Part shown: in pieces, positions 20,991 through 49,526 of the stretch | Layout: every line of letters begins with the position of its first letter | Numbering within the stretch: the first letter of the stretch is position 1 | DNA from: Polytrichum commune | Lineage: Eukaryota > Streptophyta > Polytrichopsida > Polytrichales > Polytrichaceae | Assembly (NCBI GenBank): GCA_950295325.1 | Contig: OX485806.1 | Span: 4,526,001 to 4,590,000 of the forward strand | Direction: 5' to 3' | Length of the DNA stretch: 64,000 nucleotides | Translations under genes and position numbers: made by a program | The notes under the pieces: model-generated | Database searches by the model: none | What the model was told of the DNA's origin: nothing | What the model saw: only the letters and a program-made list of their open reading frames with translations

Positions 20991-20994
20991 GGAA

Positions 20995-25900: not shown

Positions 25901-25968
25901 CTATGGCTCACAACCCTACGCCTACTATGGCCTATCTAGCCTCGGAGACTACCTCTTTTTCTTTTGCT

Positions 25969-26863: not shown

Positions 26864-27676
26864 TCAAATGAGTTTATTATATTTTGCGTGAGAGTACAAC
26901 TCTCTGTACATATAGTCCTTCGGATCCATGTATCTTTCGCCTATCGGATTACAACTAAGGAACCGGGGCACGGGTAGTCCGCTCCCCACGAGCGTTTGAA
27001 GGTACTTAAGTAGGTCTAACAAAAAGCGGTCTCGGACCTTCTCGACCGTCCACGTGGGGCAAACTATGAAGTTCGAGGTCGGGTTCAAAATGTTCTTGGA
27101 AGCGCTGTCGTCCACCATCAACGTGTTGTCACGGGTGGGACGAACGTCGTAGGGACAGCCGACCATGGTCGGACGCTGGTCCCATACGACTGGCTTCAAG
27201 ACCTTAAGAAATTGATTTACGGCGGGGTTGTTGGGCTTCTTCACAACCCTGCCCTCGGGGGTGTATAATGTTTTACAAGAATCTTGTCCTAGGACCAAGC
27301 ACGGGGGTTGGAGTCCCTTGAAGATGAACTCCACGACGGCATGGGTGTTCTCGGACTTCATGGAGCTCCACACGATCACCCACCATTTGGATAGGGCGAC
27401 CTGCAGGAAGCGCCGAAGCCACGGGCGGAGGTACACTAGCTTGCTTTTGATGTACGCGGGGGGACCATCGTAGTTCCCGTCCTCGGGCTTGCAGAAAGGC
27501 ACCGTGGGGACCTTGGGACAGTGCACGCACTGGACGAGGACCCCGTTGAGGTCTAGCACCAGGAACCGTGTCTTGGGCGGCGGAGACGGGGAGGGCAAAA
27601 TCGGGGGGACCACCGTGCTGTCCTCCACGCTCCTCGGGGAGGACCGGTGGGGAGCCACGACGCTATGCTCCGATCC
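26864..27676 (-). CDS. FCP1/NIF-like HAD phosphatase-domain exon (unit 1 gene)
   Basis: A 270-codon exon follows a CGCCGCAG acceptor and ends with a TGA. Motif I is DLNGV, where active FCP1/SCP phosphatases have DxDGT/V, so the general acid Asp is Asn. Then come WVIVWSSMKSEN and MVDDSASKNI...NFIVCPTW, the FCP1 pattern (DD, then hydrophobic, then W), and an RFLLDLLKYLQTL helix. Family members dephosphorylate phospho-Ser/Thr in proteins such as the RNA polymerase II tail. With Asn at this position, activity is doubtful and a binding role is possible. It is fused in phase to the linker exon of the ParB-methyltransferase gene. Confidence 0.75.
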   Translation of the reverse strand, partial: GSEHSVVAPHRSSPRSVEDSTVVPPILPSPSPPPKTRFLVLDLNGVLVQCVHCPKVPTVPFCKPEDGNYDGPPAYIKSKLVYLRPWLRRFLQVALSKWWVIVWSSMKSENTHAVVEFIFKGLQPPCLVLGQDSCKTLYTPEGRVVKKPNNPAVNQFLKVLKPVVWDQRPTMVGCPYDVRPTRDNTLMVDDSASKNILNPTSNFIVCPTWTVEKVRDRFLLDLLKYLQTLVGSGLPVPRFLSCNPIGERYMDPKDYMYRELYSHAKYNKLI

Positions 27677-28094
27677 CTGCGGCGACGAGCGAGAGAAGGC
27701 GGCGAGGACTATGTTATGCTATGTTTAATTCAAGCAGAACGGAAATTTTGTGCAAACACAAGAAGAATTGGACCATTGGTGGCAACAAAAACATACAAGG
27801 GGAACAACATACATTGGGACACGGATGCTAACATATGGGCGCCAAAAATAATAATTTTATTGTTACAAATCTCTATGTACAATTTGAGGGGGGGGGGCGC
27901 GGTGAACGAGGGCATTCACTATATCCTAATTGTACATCTACAAAATTGGTTGCGCGCCGCCAAGGTTGAGCGTAGTCGAGTGAGGTGAGACGAAGGGGAT
28001 CGCGGGGGGAGCACGTTGTTGGGTGCGTCGGGGGGGTGTAGTTCCTCATAGCTAGGGGGGACAAGACCACGCCAACAAGACAATGACCAAGGAG

Positions 28095-28507
28095 GTTTGG
28101 GTCGGTCGACCCAAACTGGGAGGGCTCAGTGTGTTACCTCGCCCTGGTCATGTCTCGACGATGTGGATGCCTCCACCGTCCCCGGTGCCCCACCTCTCTC
28201 GCCACCGCCTTCTCCGCCTACGTCAGGGACCTTGTCATGCAAAGGTTGAGCATCAGGCCCTTGTCCTAAACCAATCTCCGCATATGCATCATGCATGGGT
28301 TCATCGATTTGGTTAGGATTAGAGGTATCACCAGGCCCTTGGAGGCCTTCAACATCTAACATGGTTGTGTCTCTTTGAGACACAAGTTCGTCAAGGGAGG
28401 ACTGAGCTGCTCCGGGGTTTGGGTCGGGCGACCCAAACTGTCCTGCATCGGGGGAGGCGCCTTGGGGCACTACAGTCGAGGGTGGGTTTGGGTCGGTCGA
28501 CCCAAAC
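28095..28507. repeat. Three 22-bp palindromes in and next to the linker exon
   Basis: Palindromes with arms GTTTGGGTCG/CGACCCAAAC lie at 28095-28116 (intron 4), 28427-28448 (centre GG) and 28486-28507 (centre GT). The last two are inside the coding exon, where on the - strand they encode FGSPDPN and FGSTDPN. Confidence 0.85.
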
Positions 28508-31156
28508 ATCCTGGGATCGTCCGGCTGGTGAGGGGGCGCCATCACTATGGGGGGTCGTAGTGGTGGAGGGCCCAACGGGGAGGAGGATCCAGATACGCGC
28601 CAGATGTTGGGATCGTCCACTTGTTGGACCGGCGCGTACGGAACATGGGGCGGCCGCATCATGTGCTGGAAGCTGAATGACCCTTGCGACACTGGGTGCT
28701 GAGGGATGCTCTGCGCTGGGAAACCGGGGGGCAAGTGCGGAAACGAGCTGGATGGAGCCACCACCAATCCTTGCGCCCACATCCCTTGTATGACTTGCGA
28801 TATCAAGTCGGCGCTGGATGGAGGTTGGGCCATCGCCCTTAGTCTTTCTTGTTCCAAGAGGAGAGCCCTCAGCTCTGCGACCTCGTTCCGCACGGAGGGT
28901 TCTTCCGCGGCAGCCCTCTGCAGGCGGACGCGCTGCTCCTCGTCTCTACGCATCTTCTCGTTGGCTTCCTCCACAGTGAGGACTTCGGGTTTCACCCTAA
29001 CCATGCCTGCGAACGCTGTCGGGGAGGGGGGATCCGATCTGAGCCGTTTGGCGAGCTCAATGTCGTCGTCGTCCTCGCTGCTAATGGCAATGGTCTCCTC
29101 CAATGCGTAATCGCGAGCTTCTTTCCCTTTAACTTCCTCCTCTCCCGGAACGTGGCAGTCGCGTCCCTGGAGTACATGTCCCTTGCATCGTCCACCGTAA
29201 GCACGGGCATCATCTTACTCTGCGGGGTTGCGACACGCATAGCCTTCTTCCTCTGAGGGGCTTCAGATTCTTGCGTGAATCCCGTTGCCCCTTCCTCCAC
29301 ATCCCCCTCCTTTTCCTCCTCTCCGTGTTCTTCTTCTTCCTCCTCCTCTTCCACCTCTCCACCTCCTGTACGGGACGGATTGCCCGGATGGAACCCGACT
29401 AGAGGTTCGGGTAATTGGGTTGTTGCCCTCATCGCAATTTCTTCCGGGTTGATCCGCCTCGCCCTATCAAGAGGGTTCTCACCCACCTCAACAACCTCGT
29501 CCACGTAGCTTCCCGGGATCCAATCGAGGATATCCATCTTCTTTGCCAGCGATTTCTGCGTCTTGTAAAATTGCAGATCGCTATCCTCTATGTACGAGTA
29601 GATGTTCAACCCCAACATCTACACAATCCAAGTTATATAGAAATTAGAATTTGCAAGACAAAAAACAAGACCAAAAACAATATCTAGTTTGGGTCGACCG
29701 ACCCAAACTGCGCAAGAGCTAAAGAATGTAACTTACCATGGCAGCATAGAGGGGTTTCGAGCCCCCGAACACGTTGAAGATACAGTCCCCTCTCCTAGTC
29801 AGCGTCCTCAGCATCCGCATGTAGAATTCCATCCGCAGCTCATCTGCAGGATAGTTTACGTATTTGGCCTCGTCGTATAGGCATTTGCTGGAACCTAACC
29901 CATCTGGAACTTGGAAGAGCTTGTCCATCCGGGATATAGGGTGGTTCGGCACCTTCAACAACTCCGCTTTGTACACAAAATACAAACACAGGACGTTGAC
30001 GACCTTGGTCTTCTTGTCCTTCAACGACGTGTAGGCCCCCTCCGCCGGTGCGGCGATGTAGTGAGACTTGGAGACTGCATACTCCGGCTGCAATTTCCGG
30101 ACAAGGTCGTACACCTGCTCCGCCCTCCTATCCTCGACTATCCATAGCCAGACATCAACCTCCCTGAACTTAGGACTCGCATAATCGACGAACTTAGATA
30201 GGAAGGGGTCGTAAAACAGTGTGCTCATCGTACCCTCAAATGAGCTTCCAGGAATGTTCCTGAAATCTATCATTCCGAATGGGAAACGCCCCCCTGCTTT
30301 CGTCCTTATCGCCATTCTGGCGTCTTGACCTGGCCAGCCCTGAATTTTCAAAGGCTCGAAGGTGACAAGGTTGAAGTAAGCGTCCCCTTCAAACTGGACA
30401 ATCTTCTTCTCCTTGATGAAGTTCGAGAACGCACGCGCTGTGTGATCCAGAAGCGCCCGGTTCTTCCCACCCTTCACCATCTTGGCCCGCAAGAAGTCAT
30501 CCCCCGCTTCCCTTATTAGAGCCGCCATGGAGGCACTGGTGAACTTATATTCAGCTTTGAATGCTCTCCAGTTAGCCTCATGAACCTCGCCGTCCACGAC
30601 AATATTCCTCTCCGGCAGCAATTTATGCAGCTCCTGCACTATAGTTGTCTTCTTTTTCCTATTCTCCGTCCATTCCTTCATGGTGTAGCATGAAGGGACG
30701 AAGGATTTGGGCTTTAAGAAGACAATCTTCGGGTGCACCCAGCACCTTTTCGCCGTGGGCGTGAAATGCAGGATGTGCGCCGCCGCCTTCTCCATCTCCG
30801 TCTCGGAAAGGCCTTGAAGAGTTCTAAAGAACTCTCTCACGAGAGGCTTCATTTGTTTGAAGCGCGTGGTTTGGTTGAAGAAAATTCTTGTGTCCGGGTC
30901 GATGAGCTCACCCGTCTCATGCTTCTCAAATACACTCTTCCACTTCATCCAAACGGAGTCGGATGTTGTTATTAAATAAATCTCCCCTCTAAGCTCGTTG
31001 TATTTCTTCTGTTTGTGACTAGCATTATCAATGGAGGAGAATTTATTTATCATTTGGTATTTGAAGTCCTGCATGTGATCAAAACAATCATTTGAATGCA
31101 TGTTAGATATGAACATGTGATTTCCAAAACATATCATGACCAGTGTCTGCACCAAG

Positions 31157-31453
31157 AGTTTGGGTCGATCGACCCAAACTAAAAAAACATGACTGCAACA
31201 AGAGTTTGGGTCGATCGACCCAAACTAAAAAAAACATGACTGCAACAAGACTTTGGGTCGAGCGACCCAAACTAAAAAACATGACTGCAACAAGACTTTG
31301 GGTCGAGCGACCCAAACTAAAAAACATGACTGCAACAAGACTTTGGGTCGAGCGACCCAAACTAAAAAACATGACTGCAACAAGACTTTGGGTCGAGCGA
31401 CCCAAAGTACACAAATAAAGCTGCAAAAGGAGTTTGGGTCGATCGACCCAAAC
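31157..31453. repeat. Palindrome array in intron 1, unit 1 (7 copies)
   Basis: Seven 22-24-bp palindromes are spaced about 45 bp apart. They are separated by AAAAAACATGACTGCAACAAG, or by AAAGCTGCAAAAGG before the last. Centres are AT (first two and last) and AG (four). They lie wholly in the intron between the ParB-like and methyltransferase-like exons. Confidence 0.9.
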
Positions 31454-32585
31454 AATACTCACCTCCCACTTGGGATTCTTGTCCTTTGCATTCTCCCTCT
31501 CCTTGGGAGGCCTACCATAGAACTCCCACACCTCCCGCGAGGCCATGATATTCCTTATCCAGGAAGCTTGGTAGGCCCTTTTCTTATTCCCCATGTTAAA
31601 GTAACGGGAGATGTCGCTCAGTCGGGTCTCATCGTCAGACCACACCACCAGTGCCTTCCACACCTTCAACTTCTCCTTCTGATGGTTGGGATCGTCCCAC
31701 TCAGTCATCAGTTGGATTTTCTTGGAAGCCTCAACGCTGTGTTGGCCGTCTATGAGCCAAAAATCGCCTTTCTGAATTGTCGCCCACATTTCAGGGGTAG
31801 GCATTTTCTTCAGTCCATGGGGCATCACTACAATGGTTTGCCTGTCGTCTTTGAATTGTTCGCTAACGATCTGCGCGATTATCCAATCGACGTAGGCGTC
31901 TTCTTTTGCCCGGACACATTTTTCTGGTGGCGCGAGATGACACTGACTGATGTTCACGTCGAATTTGAAATCCCTGCCCATGAAAAAGCAATGGGAGCAC
32001 TTGGTCGTGAAATTGTTCACGATTTTTTGGATCTCCCCTGCATCCACTTCCTGCCCTGGCTTCGGCATGCGCAATTCTGGAGAGACTGGCTCGTCAGTCA
32101 TCACAGATGACTCTCTCGCCCTCTTGGAGGGAGTTGTTTGGCGGCTGCCATAAGGCGTAGGAGTCTGGCTATCCACCGGTGTCTCCGATGGAGTGGTTCG
32201 TCTTGAGCTAGCCGGGACTGGTTGCGGCATCCTCACCGATTGAGGCCTTGACGACCCTGCACCTTCCTCAGTGGGTACCTTCCGCCTGACGGCTTGCTGA
32301 GACTTCGTTTTGCTCTGCAGGGCTTTGTTGAGCACGCTGATTGCATGCTTTAGTTTCGTAAACCGGCTCGAGACCTTTGTGTTCGATGTACTGGCATCGA
32401 TGAAAATTGTCTCGGGTTTGATTACATCAGGTTCGACACATGACTCCCTTGCATATGTAGCGTCAAAGGGTTCGACGAACTGGTGCAGAAACATATGAGC
32501 ATTCTGCACAGCGCTGTTCTTAAGGATGACGTCTGCGTAGTCTCCAAAAGACTGGACCGACGCCACCTCCCATCCCGTAAAAGAC

Positions 32586-33530
32586 TCAATTTTGACGATG
32601 AAATTGGCTCCAACCCAATCTTCTCGCCAACTGTATTTACATCCAACAATATGTCTTTCCATTTTGTGCGTGTGGGAAGAACTTTCTCCACAACCTTTTC
32701 ACCAGTTGTGAGTGTGTGTGTTTTGTGCGGCATTGCATCGGCAAGTGGGACAATGATGGTTGCTAGAGTGGCCGTTGCTTGCCTTGTTGCTTCCCTAGGT
32801 TTCTTTAAACCCACGTTCCCATGGTGACGGGACCGGCGGCCTTCCTTGGCATAAGCAGCTTGTCTATAAAAGTCCGCTTTCGACACACCATGAATGGTGT
32901 ACCATGCCTTGCAACACACGTCTATGCTCTCAATGGTGATGACCTTGCGACCCGCCCCATTCACATGTATCGCCCTATGCACATCAAGTTTTTTGGTGGA
33001 TCTTAGATGGAAATCACCAAGCCACATTTCTTCGCGGATGGCCAACAATTTATCCCGGGGAAACAATTGGCAACAACGATGCACACAACAATCCTTTGTG
33101 GCAACTTCTCTAATGGACTCCTCCCCGAGCAACCTTTGACGTTTACAATCAGTTGCAGACGGAGCAGGACGTGCCAATGTATCGTACTTTCTTTGACCCT
33201 TGCGTGGCCGCATGTTTGATTGCTGCTCTTTTTGGATTTGCAAGTGTCGTTGCTCATGTTCACACAAACTAACTCCATCAATCGTGACATTCCTCAATGG
33301 CCACCTCCGGAGGGAGAACCTATGAGTGGGATCCACCTCGGAATGAACGAGCGACTCCAATATGACAACCCCAACGTCCTCGGTGCCAAGCGGGTTTTCA
33401 TCAATGCAATCTTGTGGATGGGTGTTGCGACAAATCCCCTCCATCACAACAACTCCACTGTCATTAAGAAGTACCACCTCCAAATTCACCCATGAAGCCC
33501 TGGAGAGTCCCGTACATTCAGCAATGGGAC
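32586..33530 (-). pseudogene. N-terminal fragment of a DUF7869 gene (unit 1)
   Basis: The - strand matches residues ~60-370 of the intact DUF7869 protein at 54.6 kb at about 88% amino-acid identity (CPIAECTGLSRASWVNLEV, CCVHRCCQLFPRD, VCCKAWYTIHGVSK). It lacks the natural start. At 32580/32581 it runs into exon 1 of the ParB gene in another frame. The LTR begins directly on its other side. Confidence 0.85.
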
Positions 33531-33535
33531 ATTGC

Positions 33536-34509
33536 TGTCGCGCACCTCTCCATGAGGAGTGGCCGAAACACCATGGGCACAAGGGGGACCCCGGAGTGAC
33601 ACCCGGGACTTGTGGCGCCGTTGGTGAGAGGGCCCAAGTGATCCTAGTGTGGGTGAGGGCCCCGGGCGTTGGGAACGCCTCCCACCCACAAAGACTAGGA
33701 GGCATGAGGGTGAGGCCATGAGCTTTGCGTAGCTCATGGCGTGGTGATTCTAGAATGCTCAAGATCACCTCAATCGGAGGTGTGAGCTAGGAGTTATGGC
33801 CATTTGAGTGGGGTGCTGTCCCGGGACAGCGCCCTGGTACAGCAGTGCCTGGGAGTGATTCCCGGGACTGCCAAGGTTCAAACAGGCATAACTTCCTCAA
33901 GACTTGCCCGACTGGGGCAAGCGAGGAGTCCATCGGCATCTACGTGAAGCGTAGATGAGGATGGAGTGGTTGGTTGTTATGATCAGACATCATACAAGGA
34001 AGTTATGATGGTCTGAAGCTGCTGGGGGGGTTCTAGGCCCAGCAGCTAAGGCAAAATGTCCACTTGGCCCCAACTCTTGGTAGAGAGACAAGAGGTTGGT
34101 TGGCGGTGGGGTAGGGGCTCCGTGTAGAGTCCTAGAGGCTTATATGGGTGAGGTGGTGTGGCCTCACCCACCCGAGGCCGAACGGCAAGGCCTCCATGGG
34201 CTTTGGCCTATTGTGAGGCCATAGTTGCCTAGTATGCTTTGGGTTGTTGTAGTGTTGCTCCGGCAACGCGATGATCAACATAGGATTGGACTTCCATGGA
34301 TGGAAGTCCACATTGGGGAAATGGGTTACCGATTAAGGGGTGAGTCCCGAAAGTAAAGTAGGAGGGTTGGTTCCCTCCTATGAACTATTGGTCCGGGGTA
34401 AGAGGAGCTATCCATTAGCATGGCGGAATGCGAATGGTTAGCGACTCGTAACCTTTGCTAGAAACGAAAATTGGCAAGATTGTTAAGGGACCTAGCAAGG
34501 GTTGCGACA
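33536..34509 (+). repeat. 5' LTR (974 bp)
   Basis: Bounded by TGTCGC...GCGACA. It differs from the 3' LTR and the solo LTR by T/C in TATGCTT(T/C)GGG, T/C in GAAAG(T/C)AAAG, and one extra A in TAGCGACTCG. Confidence 0.88.
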
Positions 34510-34511
34510 CG

Positions 34512-34523
34512 TGGTATTAGAGC
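34512..34523 (+). other. Primer-binding site
   Basis: TGGTATTAGAGC is one base from the standard initiator Met-tRNA complement and lies two bases after the 5' LTR. Confidence 0.75.
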
Positions 34524-35154
34524 AGGGTTCCAAGTTTTGAGCTCGCACTTTGAGGGAAACATGGCTATCAAAAATGCGGGTTATGATGGTGAGCCCGGGG
34601 TTTCCAAAAGGTTGTGAGGCTCAAATTGGAACAAGGATCATGTGCAAATGGAGTTTGACCATACCATTGGTTCTTATGACAATGGTGGGCATGAGGGTGG
34701 ATTTGGTAAGGAAAATGGAGGAGTGCTTTGAAAAGGGCTCCCGCAAACCTCAAAAAAATATTTGGGGCCCAGAATACCGAATGCACCCAAAACCTTGGAG
34801 GGCATTAATGTTGGATTGAAATTCCAATTCGAAATGCTTGGAAGGTATTGATGTTGGAATGAATTTGGTGCTAATGAGGCACCCGGGGCCTCTTAAGGCC
34901 TATGTGCGCTATTCAAACGCACAAATGAAGGATACACCTAAAACGGAAGAACTTTCTAAGAAATGCATCCTTTTAGGTGGGGTTTTAAAAGCGGGTGGTG
35001 GATGCCTTGTTTAAGTTCCCAAGGCTTCTTGAGGACATGGTGGGGACCATCAAGTTTGCAAGAGCATTGAAGCCGATGGTCCCAAAGAGAAGTTTGGCGG
35101 CGCATCACCACAAGTGGCTTTAGCAAAAGTAGGTCCCAAAGAAATGAGTGCAAA

Positions 35155-35500
35155 TTGTTTGGTCCATTTTACTTAGGCAAAACATGTTGGTGCCGCGGAC
35201 GGAATGTTGAAAGGTGGCTTTATGCTTCCAAAGCAAATCATACTTGTGCCGCGGACGGAATGTTGGGAGGTGGGTTTGTCCTACCAAGGCAATTCATGTT
35301 TGTGCCGCGGACGGAGTGTGGGAAGGTGGCTTTGTGCTACCAAGGCAAAACATGTTTGTTTTGCGGACAAACTATTAGAAATTGGTTTTGTGGCACCAAA
35401 CCAATTTGTCCCTCGCACGAAATGTTTGAAGTTGGCTTTGCGGACCAAGCCAAGCCAAGTTGTGGAGGACCAAATGTAAGACGATGGCATTGTGGCCAAG
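35155..35500 (+). repeat. ~62-bp tandem repeats in the gag/protease region
   Basis: Four to five degraded units contain TGCCGCGGACGGAATGTT and GGTGGCTTT.TGCT.CCAA.GCAA. They interrupt any gag reading frame, which I could not recognise. Confidence 0.7.
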
Positions 35501-35723
35501 GCTAGTAGCCTTAAGCCAAGGCCAAATCTTTTGTACCTGGAGGCTCAATGAATGGGAGAAATGTCTCATGTGTTGACAAAGAGGCTACCACTCCTTCTTG
35601 AGCCCAAAATTCACAAGGGAGTTGGGGCTTGCCGATTGATAGAGAAAACAAGCCCACCAAGGTGCGGTTTGGAAAGGGCGAACCGCATGAGACAAAGGAG
35701 GCCGCGATGCATGTAACCTTTCA

Positions 35724-37010
35724 ATGTGGGACATTGGATTTTGTCAAAATTTCACACCAAGTGAAATAGATGAAATGCATGTCATTCTGAAGGCGGCCTT
35801 CTTTGAAACTCACATGATAGATGTGAGGTGCAAGCCGGTGTGCTTGCCGTGCATTATGATGTGTCATAATGGCAAAGAATTGAAGTTCAAATTAACAATG
35901 ACTCCTATGGTAGGAGGACCTAAGTTGAATTTGGTCTTAATGGACCGAATTAAAAAAAATAAAAAACATAATGGTCGTGGTTCAATTGGAGCAACTCCAA
36001 TGAACGTATGGGGAGGCTAGGAAAGATGGGCCTCCCCCAAACAACATTGGTGCGATGTTGGTGAGATACAAAGATGTATTCACTTATGTGTTGCGCAAAA
36101 AAAAAAAAAAAAAATTACCGCCAAGGAGTGAAAAAGAACTTTGCTCAACGAGAGATCGAGTTCTTGAGGTATGTGGTGACAAAGGAAGTTGGTGGACGAA
36201 CATGAAGAATGTCAAGGCAATCCAAAAGGAGAATTGGCCCTTGATTCAAAAAGGGCTTAGGTCATTTGTTGGCCTAGCCAATTAGTACCACAACTTCATT
36301 CGAGAGTTTTCTAAGGTTGCTAGGACCTTATTCAACTTATTGAGGAAAATGGCTATCCCAAGAGTGGGATGAGCCTTGTCACCAAGCCTTTGGGGGGGGC
36401 TCAAAAAACAAGTTCTCTTCGCCGCCCGTGCTTAAGTTCGCGGACTTTGACAAACCTTTTGAGGTGCATACGGGGGCGAGTGACTTTAGCATTGGCGGAT
36501 GTTGAGGCAAAATGGATGGCCATTGTATATAAGAGCATGAAGCTCGATGGTTGTCCGACCTTGTCCAACTTATGCAAGAAATGGCTATCCCAAAAGTGGG
36601 TTGAGCCTTGCTACCAAGTCTTTAAGGAGCTTAAGACGAAGTTCTCTTCGCCGCCCGTGCTCAAGTTTGCGAAATTTGACAAACCTTTTGAGGTACATAC
36701 GGGGGCGAGTGACTTTGCTATTGGCGGATGGTTAACGTAGGATGGATGGCCATTGCATATGAGAGCGTTAAGCTTGATGGTTATCCGACCTTATCCGACT
36801 TGTGGAAGAAATGACTATCCCAAGAGTGGGATGAGCCTTGCCACCAAGTCTTCGGGGAGCTTGAGAGCAAGTGTTCTTAGACGCCCGTGCTCAAGTTCGC
36901 GGAGCTTGACAAACCTTTTGAGGTGCATACGGGGGTGAATGACTTTGCCAATGGCGGATTGTTGATGTAAGATGGATGGCCATTGCATATGGGAGCATGA
37001 AGCTCGATGG
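35724..37010 (+). pseudogene. Decayed protease, reverse transcriptase and RNase H region
   Basis: Near 35.75 kb, ILKAAFFETHMIDVR resembles the end of a retroviral-type protease. Near 36.13-36.33 kb, FAQREIEFL and LRSFVGLAN-stop-YHNFIREFSKVA match the reverse transcriptase thumb. From 36.35 kb a ~220-bp segment is repeated about three times; each holds KFADFDKPFEVHTGASDF, the start of RNase H, with Gly at the position of the catalytic Asp (TDAS). Multiple stops; non-functional. Confidence 0.7.
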
Positions 37011-38393: not shown

Positions 38394-38459
38394 CCGGAAG
38401 GCCTCGCTCCAAAAGTTCATGTCCAAAATTGGAGCTTCGTTTTCCATTGTGGAACAAGT

Positions 38460-39637: not shown

Positions 39638-40610
39638 TGTCGCGCACCTCTCCATGAGGAGTGGCCGAAACACCATGGGCACAAGGGGGACCCCGGAGTG
39701 ACACCCGGGACTTGTGGCGCCGTTGGTGAGAGGGCCCAAGTGATCCTAGTGTGGGTGAGGGCCCCGGGCGTTGGGAACGCCTCCCACCCACAAAGACTAG
39801 GAGGCATGAGGGTGAGGCCATGAGCTTTGCGTAGCTCATGGCGTGGTGATTCTAGAATGCTCAAGATCACCTCAATCGGAGGTGTGAGCTAGGAGTTATG
39901 GCCATTTGAGTGGGGTGCTGTCCCGGGACAGCGCCCTGGTACAGCAGTGCCTGGGAGTGATTCCCGGGACTGCCAAGGTTCAAACAGGCATAACTTCCTC
40001 AAGACTTGCCCGACTGGGGCAAGCGAGGAGTCCATCGGCATCTACGTGAAGCGTAGATGAGGATGGAGTGGTTGGTTGTTATGATCAGACATCATACAAG
40101 GAAGTTATGATGGTCTGAAGCTGCTGGGGGGGTTCTAGGCCCAGCAGCTAAGGCAAAATGTCCACTTGGCCCCAACTCTTGGTAGAGAGACAAGAGGTTG
40201 GTTGGCGGTGGGGTAGGGGCTCCGTGTAGAGTCCTAGAGGCTTATATGGGTGAGGTGGTGTGGCCTCACCCACCCGAGGCCGAACGGCAAGGCCTCCATG
40301 GGCTTTGGCCTATTGTGAGGCCATAGTTGCCTAGTATGCTTCGGGTTGTTGTAGTGTTGCTCCGGCAACGCGATGATCAACATAGGATTGGACTTCCATG
40401 GATGGAAGTCCACATTGGGGAAATGGGTTACCGATTAAGGGGTGAGTCCCGAAAGCAAAGTAGGAGGGTTGGTTCCCTCCTATGAACTATTGGTCCGGGG
40501 TAAGAGGAGCTATCCATTAGCATGGCGGAATGCGAATGGTTAGCGCTCGTAACCTTTGCTAGAAACGAAAATTGGCAAGATTGTTAAGGGACCTAGCAAG
40601 GGTTGCGACA
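39638..40610 (+). repeat. 3' LTR (973 bp)
   Basis: Same as the solo LTR at 44956-45928. Its last 11 bases merge with exon 3 of the next unit. Confidence 0.88.
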
Positions 40611-43600
40611 CGCATAGCCTTCTTCCTCTGAGGGGCTTCAGATTCTTGCGTGAATCCCGTTGCCCTTTCCTCCACATCCCCCTCCTTTTCCTCCTCTCCG
40701 TGTTCTTCTTCTTCCTCCTCCTCTTCCACCTCTCCACCTCCTGTACGGGACGGATTGCCCGGATGGAACCCGACTAGAGGTTCGGGTAATTGGGTTGTTG
40801 CCCTCATCGCAATTTCTTCCGGGTTGATCCGCCTCGCCCTATCAAGAGGGTTCTCACCCACCTCAACAACCTCGTCCACGTAGCTTCCCGGGATCCAATC
40901 GAGGATATCCATCTTCTTTGCCAGCGATTTCTGCGTCTTGTAAAATTGCAGATCGCTATCCTCTATGTACGAGTAGATGTTCAACCCCAACATCTACACA
41001 ATCCAAGTTATATAGAAATTAGAATTTGCAAGACAAAAAACAAGACCAAAAACAATATCTAGTTTGGGTCGACCGACCCAAACTGCGCAAGAGCTAAAGA
41101 ATGTAACTTACCATGGCAGCATAGAGGGGTTTCGAGCCCCCGAACACGTTGAAGATACAGTCCCCTCTCCTAGTCAGCGTCCTCAGCATCCGCATGTAGA
41201 ATTCCATCCGCAGCTCATCTGCAGGATAGTTTACGTATTTGGCCTCGTCGTATAGGCATTTGCTGGAACCTAACCCATCTGGAACTTGGAAGAGCTTGTC
41301 CATCCGGGATATAGGGTGGTTCGGCACCTTCAACAACTCCGCTTTGTACACAAAATACAAACACAGGACGTTGACGACCTTGGTCTTCTTGTCCTTCAAC
41401 GACGTGTAGGCCCCCTCCGCCGGTGCGGCGATGTAGTGAGACTTGGAGACTGCATACTCCGGCTGCAATTTCCGGACAAGGTCGTACACCTGCTCCGCCC
41501 TCCTATCCTCGACTATCCATAGCCAGACATCAACCTCCCTGAACTTAGGACTCGCATAATCGACGAACTTAGATAGGAAGGGGTCGTAAAACAGTGTGCT
41601 CATCGTACCCTCAAATGAGCTTCCAGGAATGTTCCTGAAATCTATCATTCCGAATGGGAAACGCCCCCCTGCTTTCGTCCTTATCGCCATTCTGGCGTCT
41701 TGACCTGGCCAGCCCTGAATTTTCAAAGGCTCGAAGGTGACAAGGTTGAAGTAAGCGTCCCCTTCAAACTGGACAATCTTCTTCTCCTTGATGAAGTTCG
41801 AGAACGCACGCGCTGTGTGATCCAGAAGCGCCCGGTTCTTCCCACCCTTCACCATCTTGGCCCGCAAGAAGTCATCCCCCGCTTCCCTTATTAGAGCCGC
41901 CATGGAGGCACTGGTGAACTTATATTCAGCTTTGAATGCTCTCCAGTTAGCCTCATGAACCTCGCCGTCCACGACAATATTCCTCTCCGGCAGCAATTTA
42001 TGCAGCTCCTGCACTATAGTTGTCTTCTTTTTCCTATTCTCCGTCCATTCCTTCATGGTGTAGCATGAAGGGACGAAGGATTTGGGCTTTAAGAAGACAA
42101 TCTTCGGGTGCACCCAGCACCTTTTCGCCGTGGGCGTGAAATGCAGGATGTGCGCCGCCGCCTTCTCCATCTCCGTCTCGGAAAGGCCTTGAAGAGTTCT
42201 AAAGAACTCTCTCACGAGAGGCTTCATTTGTTTGAAGCGCGTGGTTTGGTTGAAGAAAATTCTTGTGTCCGGGTCGATGAGCTCACCCGTCTCATGCTTC
42301 TCAAATACACTCTTCCACTTCATCCAAACGGAGTCGGATGTTGTTATTAAATAAATCTCCCCTCTAAGCTCGTTGTATTTCTTCTGTTTGTGACTAGCAT
42401 TATCAATGGAGGAGAATTTATTTATCATTTGGTATTTGAAGTCCTGCATGTGATCAAAACAATCATTTGAATGCATGTTAGATATGAACATGTGATTTCC
42501 AAAACATATCATGACCAGTGTCTGCACCAAGAGTTTGGGTCGATCGACCCAAACTAAAAAAACATGACTGCAACAAGAGTTTGGGTCGATCGACCCAAAC
42601 TAAAAAAAACATGACTGCAACAAGACTTTGGGTCGAGCGACCCAAACTAAAAAACATGACTGCAACAAGACTTTGGGTCGAGCGACCCAAACTAAAAAAC
42701 ATGACTGCAACAAGACTTTGGGTCGAGCGACCCAAACTAAAAAACATGACTGCAACAAGACTTTGGGTCGAGCGACCCAAACTAAAAAACATGACTGCAA
42801 CAAGACTTTGGGTCGAGCGACCCAAAGTACACAAATAAAGCTGCAAAAGGAGTTTGGGTCGATCGACCCAAACAATACTCACCTCCCACTTGGGATTCTT
42901 GTCCTTTGCATTCTCCCTCTCCTTGGGAGGCCTACCATAGAACTCCCACACCTCCCGCGAGGCCATGATATTCCTTATCCAGGAAGCTTGGTAGGCCCTT
43001 TTCTTATTCCCCATGTTAAAGTAACGGGAGATGTCGCTCAGTCGGGTCTCATCGTCAGACCACACCACCAGTGCCTTCCACACCTTCAACTTCTCCTTCT
43101 GATGGTTGGGATCGTCCCACTCAGTCATCAGTTGGATTTTCTTGGAAGCCTCAACGCTGTGTTGGCCGTCTATGAGCCAAAAATCGCCTTTCTGAATTGT
43201 CGCCCACATTTCAGGGGTAGGCATTTTCTTCAGTCCATGGGGCATCACTACAATGGTTTGCCTGTCGTCTTTGAATTGTTCGCTAACGATCTGCGCGATT
43301 ATCCAATCGACGTAGGCGTCTTCTTTTGCCCGGACACATTTTTCTGGTGGCGCGAGATGACACTGACTGATGTTCACGTCGAATTTGAAATCCCTGCCCA
43401 TGAAAAAGCAATGGGAGCACTTGGTCGTGAAATTGTTCACGATTTTTTGGATCTCCCCTGCATCCACTTCCTGCCCTGGCTTCGGCATGCGCAATTCTGG
43501 AGAGACTGGCTCGTCAGTCATCACAGATGACTCTCTCGCCCTCTTGGAGGGAGTTGTTTGGCGGCTGCCATAAGGCGTAGGAGTCTGGCTATCCACCGGT

Positions 43601-44000
43601 GTCTCCGATGGAGTGGTTCGTCTTGAGCTAGCCGGGACTGGTTGCGGCATCCTCACCGATTGAGGCCTTGACGACCCTGCACCTTCCTCAGTGGGTACCT
43701 TCCGCCTGACGGCTTGCTGAGACTTCGTTTTGCTCTGCAGGGCTTTGTTGAGCACGCTGATTGCATGCTTTAGTTTCGTAAACCGGCTCGAGACCTTTGT
43801 GTTCGATGTACTGGCATCGATGAAAATTGTCTCGGGTTTGATTACATCAGGTTCGACACATGACTCCCTTGCATATGTAGCGTCAAAGGGTTCGACGAAC
43901 TGGTGCAGAAACATATGAGCATTCTGCACAGCGCTGTTCTTAAGGATGACGTCTGCGTAGTCTCCAAAAGACTGGACCGACGCCACCTCCCATCCCGTAA
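40611..44000 (-). pseudogene. ParB-methyltransferase gene copy, unit 2 (truncated at both ends)
   Basis: Exons at 44000-42883 (5'-truncated), 42521-41112 and 40993-40611. Exon 3 is cut by the LTR junction, so the open frame runs into LTR sequence (ATLARSLNNLANFRF). Exon 1 is fused to the DUF7869 fragment as in unit 1. Domain content is as in unit 3. It has neither native start nor FCP1 half. Confidence 0.75.
42532..42873. repeat. Palindrome array in intron 1, unit 2 (8 copies)
   Basis: As in unit 1, but with five centre-AG units where unit 1 has four. The spacing is about 45 bp. Confidence 0.9.
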
Positions 44001-44005
44001 AAGAC

Positions 44006-44950
44006 TCAATTTTGACGATGAAATTGGCTCCAACCCAATCTTCTCGCCAACTGTATTTACATCCAACAATATGTCTTTCCATTTTGTGCGTGTGGGAAGA
44101 ACTTTCTCCACAACCTTTTCACCAGTTGTGAGTGTGTGTGTTTTGTGCGGCATTGCATCGGCAAGTGGGACAATGATGGTTGCTAGAGTGGCCGTTGCTT
44201 GCCTTGTTGCTTCCCTAGGTTTCTTTAAACCCACGTTCCCATGGTGACGGGACCGGCGGCCTTCCTTGGCATAAGCAGCTTGTCTATAAAAGTCCGCTTT
44301 CGACACACCATGAATGGTGTACCATGCCTTGCAACACACGTCTATGCTCTCAATGGTGATGACCTTGCGACCCGCCCCATTCACATGTATCGCCCTATGC
44401 ACATCAAGTTTTTTGGTGGATCTTAGATGGAAATCACCAAGCCACATTTCTTCGCGGATGGCCAACAATTTATCCCGGGGAAACAATTGGCAACAACGAT
44501 GCACACAACAATCCTTTGTGGCAACTTCTCTAATGGACTCCTCCCCGAGCAACCTTTGACGTTTACAATCAGTTGCAGACGGAGCAGGACGTGCCAATGT
44601 ATCGTACTTTCTTTGACCCTTGCGTGGCCGCATGTTTGATTGCTGCTCTTTTTGGATTTGCAAGTGTCGTTGCTCATGTTCACACAAACTAACTCCATCA
44701 ATCGTGACATTCCTCAATGGCCACCTCCGGAGGGAGAACCTATGAGTGGGATCCACCTCGGAATGAACGAGCGACTCCAATATGACAACCCCAACGTCCT
44801 CGGTGCCAAGCGGGTTTTCATCAATGCAATCTTGTGGATGGGTGTTGCGACAAATCCCCTCCATCACAACAACTCCACTGTCATTAAGAAGTACCACCTC
44901 CAAATTCACCCATGAAGCCCTGGAGAGTCCCGTACATTCAGCAATGGGAC
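44006..44950 (-). pseudogene. N-terminal fragment of a DUF7869 gene (unit 2)
   Basis: Copy of 32586-33530 with no difference that I noticed. Confidence 0.85.
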
Positions 44951-44955
44951 ATTGC

Positions 44956-45928
44956 TGTCGCGCACCTCTCCATGAGGAGTGGCCGAAACACCATGGGCAC
45001 AAGGGGGACCCCGGAGTGACACCCGGGACTTGTGGCGCCGTTGGTGAGAGGGCCCAAGTGATCCTAGTGTGGGTGAGGGCCCCGGGCGTTGGGAACGCCT
45101 CCCACCCACAAAGACTAGGAGGCATGAGGGTGAGGCCATGAGCTTTGCGTAGCTCATGGCGTGGTGATTCTAGAATGCTCAAGATCACCTCAATCGGAGG
45201 TGTGAGCTAGGAGTTATGGCCATTTGAGTGGGGTGCTGTCCCGGGACAGCGCCCTGGTACAGCAGTGCCTGGGAGTGATTCCCGGGACTGCCAAGGTTCA
45301 AACAGGCATAACTTCCTCAAGACTTGCCCGACTGGGGCAAGCGAGGAGTCCATCGGCATCTACGTGAAGCGTAGATGAGGATGGAGTGGTTGGTTGTTAT
45401 GATCAGACATCATACAAGGAAGTTATGATGGTCTGAAGCTGCTGGGGGGGTTCTAGGCCCAGCAGCTAAGGCAAAATGTCCACTTGGCCCCAACTCTTGG
45501 TAGAGAGACAAGAGGTTGGTTGGCGGTGGGGTAGGGGCTCCGTGTAGAGTCCTAGAGGCTTATATGGGTGAGGTGGTGTGGCCTCACCCACCCGAGGCCG
45601 AACGGCAAGGCCTCCATGGGCTTTGGCCTATTGTGAGGCCATAGTTGCCTAGTATGCTTCGGGTTGTTGTAGTGTTGCTCCGGCAACGCGATGATCAACA
45701 TAGGATTGGACTTCCATGGATGGAAGTCCACATTGGGGAAATGGGTTACCGATTAAGGGGTGAGTCCCGAAAGCAAAGTAGGAGGGTTGGTTCCCTCCTA
45801 TGAACTATTGGTCCGGGGTAAGAGGAGCTATCCATTAGCATGGCGGAATGCGAATGGTTAGCGCTCGTAACCTTTGCTAGAAACGAAAATTGGCAAGATT
45901 GTTAAGGGACCTAGCAAGGGTTGCGACA
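44956..45928 (+). mobile_element. Solo LTR of the same retrotransposon
   Basis: TGTCGC...GCGACA, 973 bp, matching the 3' LTR at the three diagnostic positions. Its flanks (ATTGC and CGCAT) are those of unit 1. Confidence 0.9.
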
Positions 45929-48900
45929 CGCATAGCCTTCTTCCTCTGAGGGGCTTCAGATTCTTGCGTGAATCCCGTTGCCCTTTCCTCCACATCCCCC
46001 TCCTTTTCCTCCTCTCCGTGTTCTTCTTCTTCCTCCTCCTCTTCCACCTCTCCACCTCCTGTACGGGACGGATTGCCCGGATGGAACCCGACTAGAGGTT
46101 CGGGTAATTGGGTTGTTGCCCTCATCGCAATTTCTTCCGGGTTGATCCGCCTCGCCCTATCAAGAGGGTTCTCACCCACCTCAACAACCTCGTCCACGTA
46201 GCTTCCCGGGATCCAATCGAGGATATCCATCTTCTTTGCCAGCGATTTCTGCGTCTTGTAAAATTGCAGATCGCTATCCTCTATGTACGAGTAGATGTTC
46301 AACCCCAACATCTACACAATCCAAGTTATATAGAAATTAGAATTTGCAAGACAAAAAACAAGACCAAAAACAATATCTAGTTTGGGTCGACCGACCCAAA
46401 CTGCGCAAGAGCTAAAGAATGTAACTTACCATGGCAGCATAGAGGGGTTTCGAGCCCCCGAACACGTTGAAGATACAGTCCCCTCTCCTAGTCAGCGTCC
46501 TCAGCATCCGCATGTAGAATTCCATCCGCAGCTCATCTGCAGGATAGTTTACGTATTTGGCCTCGTCGTATAGGCATTTGCTGGAACCTAACCCATCTGG
46601 AACTTGGAAGAGCTTGTCCATCCGGGATATAGGGTGGTTCGGCACCTTCAACAACTCCGCTTTGTACACAAAATACAAACACAGGACGTTGACGACCTTG
46701 GTCTTCTTGTCCTTCAACGACGTGTAGGCCCCCTCCGCCGGTGCGGCGATGTAGTGAGACTTGGAGACTGCATACTCCGGCTGCAATTTCCGGACAAGGT
46801 CGTACACCTGCTCCGCCCTCCTATCCTCGACTATCCATAGCCAGACATCAACCTCCCTGAACTTAGGACTCGCATAATCGACGAACTTAGATAGGAAGGG
46901 GTCGTAAAACAGTGTGCTCATCGTACCCTCAAATGAGCTTCCAGGAATGTTCCTGAAATCTATCATTCCGAATGGGAAACGCCCCCCTGCTTTCGTCCTT
47001 ATCGCCATTCTGGCGTCTTGACCTGGCCAGCCCTGAATTTTCAAAGGCTCGAAGGTGACAAGGTTGAAGTAAGCGTCCCCTTCAAACTGGACAATCTTCT
47101 TCTCCTTGATGAAGTTCGAGAACGCACGCGCTGTGTGATCCAGAAGCGCCCGGTTCTTCCCACCCTTCACCATCTTGGCCCGCAAGAAGTCATCCCCCGC
47201 TTCCCTTATTAGAGCCGCCATGGAGGCACTGGTGAACTTATATTCAGCTTTGAATGCTCTCCAGTTAGCCTCATGAACCTCGCCGTCCACGACAATATTC
47301 CTCTCCGGCAGCAATTTATGCAGCTCCTGCACTATAGTTGTCTTCTTTTTCCTATTCTCCGTCCATTCCTTCATGGTGTAGCATGAAGGGACGAAGGATT
47401 TGGGCTTTAAGAAGACAATCTTCGGGTGCACCCAGCACCTTTTCGCCGTGGGCGTGAAATGCAGGATGTGCGCCGCCGCCTTCTCCATCTCCGTCTCGGA
47501 AAGGCCTTGAAGAGTTCTAAAGAACTCTCTCACGAGAGGCTTCATTTGTTTGAAGCGCGTGGTTTGGTTGAAGAAAATTCTTGTGTCCGGGTCGATGAGC
47601 TCACCCGTCTCATGCTTCTCAAATACACTCTTCCACTTCATCCAAACGGAGTCGGATGTTGTTATTAAATAAATCTCCCCTCTAAGCTCGTTGTATTTCT
47701 TCTGTTTGTGACTAGCATTATCAATGGAGGAGAATTTATTTATCATTTGGTATTTGAAGTCCTGCATGTGATCAAAACAATCATTTGAATGCATGTTAGA
47801 TATGAACATGTGATTTCCAAAACATATCATGACCAGTGTCTGCACCAAGAGTTTGGGTCGATCGACCCAAACTAAAAAAACATGACTGCAACAAGAGTTT
47901 GGGTCGATCGACCCAAACTAAAAAAAACATGACTGCAACAAGACTTTGGGTCGAGCGACCCAAACTAAAAAACATGACTGCAACAAGACTTTGGGTCGAG
48001 CGACCCAAACTAAAAAACATGACTGCAACAAGACTTTGGGTCGAGCGACCCAAACTAAAAAACATGACTGCAACAAGACTTTGGGTCGAGCGACCCAAAC
48101 TAAAAAACATGACTGCAACAAGACTTTGGGTCGAGCGACCCAAAGTACACAAATAAAGCTGCAAAAGGAGTTTGGGTCGATCGACCCAAACAATACTCAC
48201 CTCCCACTTGGGATTCTTGTCCTTTGCATTCTCCCTCTCCTTGGGAGGCCTACCATAGAACTCCCACACCTCCCGCGAGGCCATGATATTCCTTATCCAG
48301 GAAGCTTGGTAGGCCCTTTTCTTATTCCCCATGTTAAAGTAACGGGAGATGTCGCTCAGTCGGGTCTCATCGTCAGACCACACCACCAGTGCCTTCCACA
48401 CCTTCAACTTCTCCTTCTGATGGTTGGGATCGTCCCACTCAGTCATCAGTTGGATTTTCTTGGAAGCCTCAACGCTGTGTTGGCCGTCTATGAGCCAAAA
48501 ATCGCCTTTCTGAATTGTCGCCCACATTTCAGGGGTAGGCATTTTCTTCAGTCCATGGGGCATCACTACAATGGTTTGCCTGTCGTCTTTGAATTGTTCG
48601 CTAACGATCTGCGCGATTATCCAATCGACGTAGGCGTCTTCTTTTGCCCGGACACATTTTTCTGGTGGCGCGAGATGACACTGACTGATGTTCACGTCGA
48701 ATTTGAAATCCCTGCCCATGAAAAAGCAATGGGAGCACTTGGTCGTGAAATTGTTCACGATTTTTTGGATCTCCCCTGCATCCACTTCCTGCCCTGGCTT
48801 CGGCATGCGCAATTCTGGAGAGACTGGCTCGTCAGTCATCACAGATGACTCTCTCGCCCTCTTGGAGGGAGTTGTTTGGCGGCTGCCATAAGGCGTAGGA

Positions 48901-49526
48901 GTCTGGCTATCCACCGGTGTCTCCGATGGAGTGGTTCGTCTTGAGCTAGCCGGGACTGGTTGCGGCATCCTCACCGATTGAGGCCTTGACGACCCTGCAC
49001 CTTCCTCAGTGGGTACCTTCCGCCTGACGGCTTGCTGAGACTTCGTTTTGCTCTGCAGGGCTTTGTTGAGCACGCTGATTGCATGCTTTAGTTTCGTAAA
49101 CCGGCTCGAGACCTTTGTGTTCGATGTACTGGCATCGATGAAAATTGTCTCGGGTTTGATTACATCAGGTTCGACACATGACTCCCTTGCATATGTAGCG
49201 TCAAAGGGTTCGACGAACTGGTGCAGAAACATATGAGCATTCTGCACAGCGCTGTTCTTAAGGATGACGTCTGCGTAGTCTCCAAAAGACTGGACTGACG
49301 CCACCTCCCATCCCGTAAGAGTCGCCCAGGTATGTTTTTCCACGGTCCCTACTTTGACAACGAATATCAGTTTGTAAATGGAGGTTTTTACTACTTGAAT
49401 TGACCAGGCGAGGACAAGCCCGTCCTTAGGGACATATGAGTCATCCTGAGGTGTTTCGTGCTCCTGCCATAACACGTCTGGCGCAAGCATGAACCACCTT
49501 TCTCCTGGTCTTTTCTTTGGGGCCAT
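45929..49526 (-). CDS. ParB/DGQHR-like + DNA-methyltransferase-like protein, exons 1-3 with native start (unit 3)
   Basis: Exons 49526-48201 (442 codons), 47839-46430 (470 codons) and 46311-45929; introns GT-AG, phase 0. The ATG at 49526 directly follows an acceptor-like TTTCTTTGCAG, so a 5' leader exon is likely. Residues ~255-420 resemble ParB/DGQHR domains: FWLIDGQHSVEASKK, a strand KVWKALVVW, then LSDISRYFNMGN. Exon 2 resembles beta-class N4/N6 DNA methyltransferases: a motif IV-like segment near residues 735-760 (FGMIDFRNIPG; FYDPF) precedes motif I near 900 (RGDCIFNVFGGSKPLYAA) and an LGLNIYSYIEDSDLQFY segment. ParB plus methyltransferase is a known phage and plasmid architecture. Here DPPY is lost and FxGSG is FGGSK, so catalysis is doubtful. 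Exon 3 is cut by the tandem junction at 45929; its continuation lies at 29.2 kb. Codon use does not look foreign. Confidence 0.7.
46380..46401. repeat. Single 22-bp palindrome in intron 2 (unit 3)
   Basis: Arms GTTTGGGTCG/CGACCCAAAC, centre AC. The same site occurs at 29687-29708 and 41062-41083 in the other units. Confidence 0.9.
47850..48191. repeat. Palindrome array in intron 1, unit 3 (8 copies)
   Basis: Same organisation and count as in unit 2. The array fills nearly the whole 361-bp intron between the ParB-like and methyltransferase-like exons. Confidence 0.9.

Follow-up and report, generated by a model that had tools for sequence, protein, structure and literature searches.

A transposon with two divergent genes

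The window, the whole 64,000-nucleotide stretch of Polytrichum commune DNA that was analyzed, contains a high-copy DNA transposon with terminal inverted repeats (TIRs) and a target-site duplication (TSD). Its passenger is a gene with ParB-like, methyltransferase-like and FCP1 parts (Table 1). A sequence-only reading had treated this as a plant gene in its own right, but the gene lies inside the multi-copy element. The element measures 32,812 bp, or about 16 kb after subtraction of inner tandem copies and an LTR retrotransposon. Three sibling elements (S1, S2 and S3) measure 17-19 kb and have the same layout. In all 4 elements a DUF7869 gene lies divergent from the passenger gene, on the other strand; gene order and splice sites are conserved. 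The DUF7869 protein is presumed to be the transposase; Pfam assigns DUF7869 no function.

A 4-bp TSD was present in 4 of the 4 elements examined (AGTT in the window; CCTT, ATAA and AAGT in the siblings). The TIR was perfect over 28 bp in the window element, S2 and S3; in S1 it was perfect over 9 bp, with mismatches beyond. Taken alone, the 4-bp duplication is compatible with the Sola1 superfamily; a 4-bp duplication has been reported for Sola2 (PMC3627910). Exon 2 was found in at least 95 genomic copies on seven contigs, a lower bound set by 95 scored matches out of 1,228 first-look candidates, and 75 of the 95 had no internal stop. NB-ARC and ZF-HD genes neighbor the element. A convergent two-gene element, drawn from the repeat 25394-25994/610-1, was rejected because positions 610 and 25394 mark the corresponding end in two separate elements; the genes are divergent. 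A right element end at 52798 was also rejected; its terminal motif is identical, yet the duplication is no longer than a 2-bp match.

Table 1. Coordinates of features in the window.
Feature	Position	Strand	Remarks
Left TSD	25390..25393	.	AGTT
Whole DNA transposon	25394..58205	.	28-bp perfect TIRs and AGTT duplication; 3 sibling elements alike
Left TIR	25394..25421	+	AACACTATATTCGTTAAATTGAGACTTT
Two further coding-like stretches	25972..26765	-	Downstream of FCP1 stop; conserved in 3 siblings
FCP1/NIF phosphatase-like exon	26864..27676	-	VLDLNGVLV; stop 26864-26866; PF03031 E 1.1e-13
Three palindromes	28096..28506		28418 and 28487 within coding exon 3; 28096 in next intron
Exon 3	28138..29618	-	Complete in copy 1 only; methyltransferase-like domain end, acidic and coiled-coil-like linker; frameshifted
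Exon 2, copy 1	29737..31068	-	100% identical to copy 3
Nested LTR retrotransposon	33536..40612 (about)	.	976-bp LTRs at 33536-34511 and 39638-40612
Exon 2, copy 2	41112..42443	-	100% identical to copy 3
Solo LTR copy	44956-45930
Palindrome, intron 2	46381..46400		Repeats at 41063 and 29688
Exon 2, copy 3	46430..47761	-	Methyltransferase-like, permuted order; motif I-like DCIFNVFGGSKPLYAAM; end ...FGGSKPLYAAM
Palindrome array, intron 1	47852..48190		8 sites, ~45-bp period; repeats at 42534-42872 (8) and 31159-31452 (7)
Exon 1, copy 3	48201..49526	-	Complete; ATG start; ParB-like stretch with WLIDGQHS
Palindromes upstream of exon 1	49766..49884		Three exact; plus 1-mismatch site at 49554
Palindrome arrays 5' of DUF7869 gene	53554..54403		~65-bp and ~56-bp periods
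Presumed transposase gene, first long ORF	54578..56134	+	ATG at 54606; CCxxHRCC and HDKMDHAK text; homologues in 3 siblings
Presumed transposase gene, DUF7869 part	56159..57670	+	QLDNCAKDNK, VGHTHDDID; PF25273 E 8e-41
Right TIR	58178..58205	-
Right TSD	58206..58209	.	AGTT

The element in the window is damaged and carries an internal triplication. Exons 1-3 are present three times (c3 49526-45918, c2 44022-40600, c1 32602-29225) at 99-100% DNA identity, and each of these copies has parts missing: the first 54 residues are absent from c1 and c2, and c2 and c3 break off in an LTR within exon 3. The linker is read in one frame over 29618-28992 and in another over 29214-28126. At this switch point three other genomic copies keep one frame, and exon 3 is a single open frame of 498-499 amino acids in S1 and S2. 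Not one of the 4 elements read (window, S1, S2, S3) was fully open in every exon. The exon structure proposed earlier held in that exons 1 and 2, the linker and the FCP1 exon lie on the minus strand in phase 0 with good splice sites, but it did not hold as a simple gene, given the triplication of exons 1-3, the LTRs inside and the frameshifted linker.

Domain content of the passenger protein

The FCP1 HAD domain claimed earlier is certain: PF03031 matched at 51.6 bits in the window, against a gathering score of 21.8, and at 56.1 bits in S3. Motif I of FCP1 is usually DxDxT, and the catalytic motif is given as DxDx[TV]; motif I here was DLNGV, off the DxDx[TV] pattern, in the window, S1, S2, S3 and four sampled copies. 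In each of the four full elements (window, S1, S2 and S3), and in 8 of 10 additional copies that were sampled, exon 2 is followed downstream by the FCP1 exon. Fusion of the ParB-like/methyltransferase-like part with FCP1 is a trait of the whole family. The coding-like stretches beyond the FCP1 stop are either the end of this gene or a third small gene; their dN/dS was mixed (1.04 for window-S1, on 2.5 synonymous changes, and 0.19-0.32 for other pairs) and was not used as evidence.

Judged from sequence, the domain order of ParB-like, permuted methyltransferase-like and FCP1 is probably right. The motifs on which the earlier ParB and permuted methyltransferase claim was built are there (IDGQHS in exon 1, FGGSK in exon 2), but no ParB or methyltransferase profile matched the exons. 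The window gene's family (family 1) had no ParB or methyltransferase match in Pfam, NCBIfam, PHROGs or PDB, and PF01555 (N6_N4_Mtase) gave nothing against the window gene at E up to 10. A GHBP match at E 0.001, below the GHBP cut-off, and other sub-threshold library matches were disregarded. Family-1 exons scored below 0 bits in HMMER with a 75-sequence phage profile. HHalign of the family-1 methyltransferase part was weak (E 0.011-0.027) and aligned motif I only; shuffles did as well in 0/40, 1/40, 1/60, 2/40 and 0/40 cases across runs. For ParB, HHalign was at chance, with 8/60 shuffles as good for the window copy and 23/40 for family 2; S3 was slightly better (1/40).

The same genome holds further ParB-methyltransferase-type genes, families 2 and 3. 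Family 2 had no ParB or methyltransferase match in Pfam and PDB. The methyltransferase profile of families 2 and 3 aligned with the phage ParB-methyltransferase profile at E 4.6e-8 over 189 columns, with 0/40 column shuffles as good, and motif I and the overall methyltransferase order were kept in family 2. The methyltransferase regions of families 1 and 2 gave no alignment to each other (E 0.44). We base the family-1 methyltransferase call on the weak HHalign scores together with the match of this second family of the same genome to phage ParB-methyltransferases. The [DNS]PP[YFW] motif was absent from the pieces read of families 1, 2 and 3, including exons 2 and 3 of the window and S3; the nearest by eye in family-1 exons was YDPFL. 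Two single-sequence AlphaFold predictions had pLDDT values of 31 and 35, too low for a fold search. At loci of families 2 and 3, no inverted repeats were accompanied by a duplication of more than 2 bp.

No relative of the plant protein was found in phage records (tblastn) or viral contigs (pattern scan), and no exon-2 relative in GTDB genomes (pattern scan). These searches gave no support to direct descent from a phage or plasmid protein, as suggested earlier. The wider link to mobile elements was correct but understated; the gene is still on a multi-copy eukaryotic DNA transposon.

Purifying selection marks the passenger protein across copies. Values of dN/dS were 0.07-0.17 for exon 1 (three pairs not saturated) and, for six pairs each, 0.05-0.30 for exon 2, 0.15-0.28 for exon 3 and 0.07-0.20 for the FCP1 exon. 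The DUF7869 part had values of 0.22-0.41 (six pairs).

Palindrome arrays

A 22-letter palindrome, GTTTGGGTCGNNCGACCCAAAC, adjoins both family 1 and family 2. Its 20-bp core had 9,731 exact copies in the genome, compared to 0 for the reversed control. With at most 1 mismatch, 45 palindromes were found in the window and 0 in 100 shuffles. Arm conservation was judged from mismatch counts; an exact-match set cannot show invariant arms. The palindrome had 0 matches in viral contigs and one stretch in GTDB, taken as chance. The sites at 28418 and 28487 encode FGS[TP]DPN.

Nine palindrome clusters were grouped from 100 places listed. Six of the nine had a ParB-methyltransferase-type gene no more than 2 kb away, with three families represented; for the other three, the gene within this distance was SWIM-like. 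One family-2 array has a distant DUF7869 relative (26%, E 3e-19) at roughly 10 kb, and the transposase therefore stays a possible palindrome reader. In locus B, the other family-2 locus, the 35 kb read contained no DUF7869 match.

Possible role of the protein and known systems

The reading that we favor, with moderate confidence, is that the passenger protein reads the palindromes of its own element and marks DNA, or once did, with FCP1 acting on a host protein. The ParB-like domain would bind the palindrome arrays of its own element, and the methyltransferase-like domain would mark, or would once have marked, adenine or cytosine amino groups in the array DNA. With such marks, copies of the element could pass as self, avoid being silenced or control their own promoters. 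The FCP1-like domain probably came from a host gene and may act on, or anchor the protein to, a host protein, for example the tail of RNA polymerase II. A broader idea, which we offer tentatively as possible, is that self-marking is common to several transposon families in a single land plant: a ParB-like methyltransferase would read the roughly 9,700 identical palindromes as a eukaryotic parS-plus-methylation code, and one family would have gained the FCP1-like domain as a means of acting on host transcription.

The palindromes could instead be transposase-binding (subterminal) sites, or promoter operators for the DUF7869 protein or a host factor, with the ParB-methyltransferase-like protein doing something else. 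Arrays do stand at the 5' ends of both genes, and regulatory or transposase sites lie likewise at 5' ends in other plant transposons. The three clusters by a SWIM-like gene and the DUF7869 relative near a family-2 array also fit, but the six clusters near ParB-methyltransferase-type genes and the result at locus B do not, and we consider this explanation rather unlikely. We are similarly doubtful of a methyltransferase-like domain that does not methylate, being a pseudo-enzyme or a module that binds DNA or senses SAM and is retained for recognizing DNA or controlling silencing. Exon 2 is under strong purifying selection, and family 2 retains motif I and the overall order, both of which speak against it; the absence of [DNS]PP[YFW] from the pieces read of three families and the alignment of family 1 at motif I only speak in its favor.

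It is quite improbable that the transposon has exons 1-3 in one gene and the FCP1 exon in another. Exon 3 is readable to a stop right after the donor (EVTH or EVIH, then stop), as a separate gene might be; however, the FCP1 frame has no Met ahead of DLNG in the window, S1, S2, S3 or four sampled copies, and all four elements share a phase-0 donor after GAG (in S3, from protein text) and the acceptor junction PQ/GSEH. Among ten sampled copies, a strict acceptor pattern matched 4. An ordinary single-copy plant gene invaded by repeats might be suspected from the exons, introns, host-type phosphatase domain and NB-ARC and ZF-HD neighbors. The copy number refutes this, as do the four elements, which have TIR and TSD at matching ends.

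The passenger gene would extend the ParB-methyltransferase transposon proteins, as predicted here, from algae to a land plant, and the added FCP1-like domain suggests interference with host transcription. Two open questions are touched: the eukaryotic use of 6mA/4mC and the escape of transposons from silencing. Both become testable in a single genome when a predicted DNA-binding methyltransferase comes together with candidate target sites that are identical and number in the thousands; gene and sites are known, and native modification is readable by long-read sequencing.

In prokaryotic ParB-parS partition, palindromic sites lie in arrays beside a ParB-like gene. The arrays described here also adjoin a ParB-like gene, but the palindrome has a variable center and the setting is a eukaryotic transposon. 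Phage ParB-methyltransferase fusions (annotated as methyltransferase or ParB-like partition protein) likewise place ParB before a beta-class methyltransferase, and family 2 aligns with them as above; family 1, in contrast, has diverged much further, and it has a long additional stretch separating the two domains and ends in an FCP1 tail. Fungal DNA transposons carrying TET/JBP have a DNA-modifying enzyme aboard as well, although theirs is an oxygenase, not an amino-methyltransferase (PMC12730594). N4CMT of bdelloid rotifers is a bacterial-type amino-methyltransferase in a eukaryote and acts at transposons, but it is a host gene fused to a chromodomain, whereas the methyltransferase predicted here is encoded by the transposon (PMC8885841).

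The giant DNA transposon Sola1-1_Ec32 of the brown alga Ectocarpus encodes a 1104-amino-acid protein with ParB-like and N6/N4 DNA methyltransferase domains, opposite in strand to the transposase (PMC12477816), a strand arrangement matched here with DUF7869 taken as the transposase. Similar proteins of green and red algal transposons are cited there to Iyer, Abhiman and Aravind 2011 and to Petroll et al. 2025 for Bostrychia (PMC12477816). The earlier statement that no plant gene with this domain set had been described holds only in a narrow sense: ParB-plus-methyltransferase transposon proteins of brown algae were already in print, with green and red algal ones cited in the same paper. Going by the published description of Sola1-1_Ec32 (PMC12477816), the present element differs in its land-plant host, DUF7869 gene, FCP1 domain in the same gene and palindrome arrays. 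Relative to the published algal ParB-methyltransferase transposon genes, three features appear to be new: a land plant as host, the fusion with FCP1 and the arrays of palindromes.

Exons and integrity of the family-1 gene

The family-1 gene carries a ParB-like stretch in exon 1, methyltransferase-like sequence in exons 2 and 3, and an FCP1 exon. The exons proposed by the sequence-only reading were present on the minus strand with splice sites and with phase 0 at the exon 1/2/3/FCP1 junctions, and its FCP1 domain was recovered as NIF/FCP1 in a Pfam search (E 1.1e-13). Self-comparison of the window revealed a 5,318-bp repeated unit, 39638-44000 being 99.98% identical to 44956-49318, and the exons recur a third time at 29225-32580. 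Copies 1 and 2 (copy 3 having the uppermost coordinates) are without the initial 54 residues of exon 1; in their place stands a 948-bp fragment that shares 87% identity with 54764-55711 of the DUF7869 gene. Exon 3 of copies 2 and 3 is interrupted by an LTR, and copies 1 and 2 are separated by a 7-kb LTR retrotransposon with LTRs of 976 bp. In the window the linker is frameshifted (open stretches 29618-28992 and 29214-28126 differ in frame); at this place it is a single continuous frame in three genomic siblings. Because of the exon triplication, LTR interruptions, missing exon-1 start and linker frameshift, the 22.7-kb span, previously read as a single gene, is not an intact gene.

A further FCP1-like frame, truncated and with 33% identity to that of the gene, was seen at 62073-62708 on the minus strand (PF03031, E 4e-8), outside the element and beside an LTR fragment. 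It may be a relic of an older relative.

Locations of genes, exons and sibling elements (plain coordinates refer to the window)
Feature	Location	Strand	Details
Exon 1	49526-48201	-	starts after 3' splice site tttctttgcag/ATG, ends at GAG/GTGAGT; sequence reading
Exon 2	47761-46430	-	bounded by CAG/GAC and ATG/GTAAGT; sequence reading
Exon 3	start 46311 (copy 3) or 29618 (copy 1)	-	gtgtag/ATG; sequence reading
FCP1 exon	27676-26867	-	sequence reading and Pfam
DUF7869 gene	54578-57670	+	PF25273, E 8e-41
Sibling S1	C1:1174918-1193533		18,616 bp; flanks CCTT
Sibling S2	C1:2112817-2129768		16,952 bp; flanks ATAA
Sibling S3	C1:610757-628840		18,084 bp; flanks AAGT
Family 2 gene	C1:2160265-2163731		near another palindrome cluster
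Family 2 gene	C1:478306-482718		near another palindrome cluster
Family 3 gene, diverged	C1:472482-473437		near palindrome cluster

The transposon, its copies and selection

The family-1 gene and the DUF7869 gene, presumed to encode the transposase, lie head to head within a DNA transposon. Its terminal motif AACACTATATTCGTTAAATTGAGACTTT begins at 25394, the inverse ends at 58205, and AGTT stands on both flanks. The genome searched was a 407.8-Mb assembly of 64 contigs (window at G000:C4:4526001-4590000), from which siblings S1, S2 and S3 were picked among the first 100 palindrome places listed. Gene order was the same in all four elements, the ends of exons 1-3 were kept in the siblings, and the terminal repeat was perfect over 28 bp in three elements, including that of the window, and over 9 bp in S1. 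At least 95 genomic matches to exon 2 were scored, the best 95 of 1,228 first-look candidates; the window's own three are included and S1-S3 are not. All but one (94/95) span the full 444 residues, identity is 90-100%, and 75 have no internal stop. Of 10 copies sampled from these 95, 8 had the FCP1 exon, two of them only up to the end of the extracted stretch. Within the stretch taken, sampled copy L161 had the exon-3 end and no FCP1, and L157 had neither. Three of the exon-2 copies (C3:10601888, 10685663 and 10769505), each with one stop and all scoring equally, are spaced about 84 kb apart, which suggests that the element was carried along in an 84-kb tandem duplication.

Nei-Gojobori dN/dS over the six pairs of the four elements was 0.05-0.30 for exon 2, 0.15-0.28 for exon 3, 0.07-0.20 for FCP1 and 0.22-0.41 for the DUF7869 part; for exon 1 it was 0.07-0.17 in three pairs, the three pairs that involve S3 having saturated dS. 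These low values indicate that selection has maintained the family-1 protein, FCP1 domain included, during the spread of the element. Individual copies carry lesions: exon 1 has a stop and exon 2 a frameshift in both S1 and S2, exon 3 is frameshifted in the window and, further on, in S3, and the FCP1 exon of S1 has a late stop. Exons 1 and 2 of S3 are open. Each of the four elements read therefore has at least one exon that is not open.

Several further features were seen in the window. Positions 1-610 belong to another element, of which they form the end on the FCP1 side (matching 25394-25994 at 92.8%); this element continues past the window edge and abuts an older DUF7869 gene (594-1737, 62% amino acid identity to the gene at 56-57 kb), as if inserted into it. 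A further relative has left a relic at 20327-21559, a DUF7869-gene fragment (36% amino acid identity) accompanied at 20327 and 20521 by similar terminal motifs. The 62 bp at 52737-52798 are 98% identical to the right end (58145-58206), lack a matching 4-bp duplication and are an orphan element end. Past the FCP1 stop, coding-like stretches at 25972-26765 (minus strand) keep about 92% identity even in S3, compared to 76% for FCP1; they may be a third small gene or an end region acting in cis. A disease-resistance-type gene (NB-ARC/Roq1-type and LRR, with a TIR-like part by eye) lies at 10968-17474 on the plus strand, and an ORF with a ZF-HD dimerisation domain at 9397-9861; the NB-ARC/Roq1-type and ZF-HD domains identify the sequence as that of a land plant.

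The palindrome and its candidate readers

In the window, 41 exact matches to the 20-bp core TTTGGGTCGNNCGACCCAAA and 4 with a single mismatch were counted, against none in 100 shuffles. The ParB-like gene carries sites in its introns 1-3 and in its 5' region, and two lie within its coding exon 3; others are found 5' of the DUF7869 gene. Among 20 distinct contexts of exact cores, 17 have an outer G and 19 an outer C; the remaining flanks and the array periods (about 45, 33, 65 and 56 bp) vary, as does the centre (AG 15, AT 11, GT 8, AC 6, GG 1). Decayed sites were few: exact, one- and two-mismatch counts were 41/4/0 in the window element, 18/6/2 in S1, 25/9/2 in S2 and 38/2/0 in S3. The coding pair, 69 bp apart, was exactly kept in all four elements, and was intact even though about 25% of exon-3 sites (355/1,434) differ between the window and S3. 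Genome-wide there were 9,731 exact copies and none of the reversed pattern.

Nine clusters were grouped from 100 places listed of these 9,731. Among them, six lie less than 2 kb from a ParB-methyltransferase-type gene (S1, S2, S3, two of family 2 and one of family 3) and three less than 2 kb from a SWIM-like gene, which has at most a SWIM finger below the Pfam cut-off (E 0.076), adjoins one family-2/3 gene and also occurs at another cluster, where the 20 kb read contained no ParB gene. We infer that the ParB-methyltransferase-type protein reads the palindrome. The transposase remains a rival reader: at roughly 10 kb from one family-2 array there is a distant DUF7869 relative (26%, E 3e-19), and none was found in 35 kb around the other. 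That relative occupies about 5306-9562 of C1:2165001-2175000 (minus strand), with 24-37% identity to the window's gene. A second palindrome, CCCTGTGCGNNNNCGCACAGGG, perhaps the site of another family, has 6 copies in C1:455001-490000 and 5 in C1:2145001-2165000, near family-2/3 genes, and none in the window, S1, S2, S3 or a 430-kb stretch.

Predicted domains and proposed role

The ParB and methyltransferase assignments fared less well in profile searches. Pfam returned neither family in family-1 exons 1 and 2, and motif I aligned weakly. Exon 2 and the start of exon 3 carry RRGDCIFNVFGGSKPLYAAMMLGLNIYSYIEDSD, which by eye matches the motif I region of phage enzymes; HHalign gave E 0.011-0.027 over about 27-38 columns, and shuffles equalled the score in 0/40, 1/40, 1/60, 2/40 and 0/40 cases in five control runs. 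The ParB-like stretch of exon 1, GDFWLIDGQHSVEASKK, was at chance level in the window copy (8/60 shuffles as good) and slightly better in S3 (1/40). A 75-sequence phage profile scored below 0 against the family-1 exons in HMMER. Direct support for both domains in family 1 is thus thin. Better evidence comes from families 2 and 3, whose methyltransferase profile matched phage ParB-methyltransferases with E 4.6e-8 over 189 columns (matched by 0/40 column shuffles); a single row gave E 8e-4 (0/40). In family 2 this domain follows a ParB-like WDGNHRF stretch recognized by eye (HHalign at chance, 23/40). The family-1 and family-2 methyltransferase regions could not be aligned to one another (E 0.44). 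Since the motif [DNS]PP[YFW] is absent from the pieces read of families 1, 2 and 3, catalysis by these predicted domains cannot be assumed.

Most likely, the family-1 protein would coat or scan its own element via the palindromes and modify or mark the element DNA, which would favor the element's expression or help it to evade silencing. Its FCP1-like part may bind a host target rather than dephosphorylate, its DLNGV motif departing from DxDxT.

The sequence-only reading had known of no described plant gene with this set of domains. A literature search, with most subscription papers outside its reach, turned up neither a land-plant member nor the FCP1 fusion nor the palindromes; the claim stands in this narrow sense. 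The kind of protein, however, is already known, because an Ectocarpus paper describes a precedent for it (PMC12477816).
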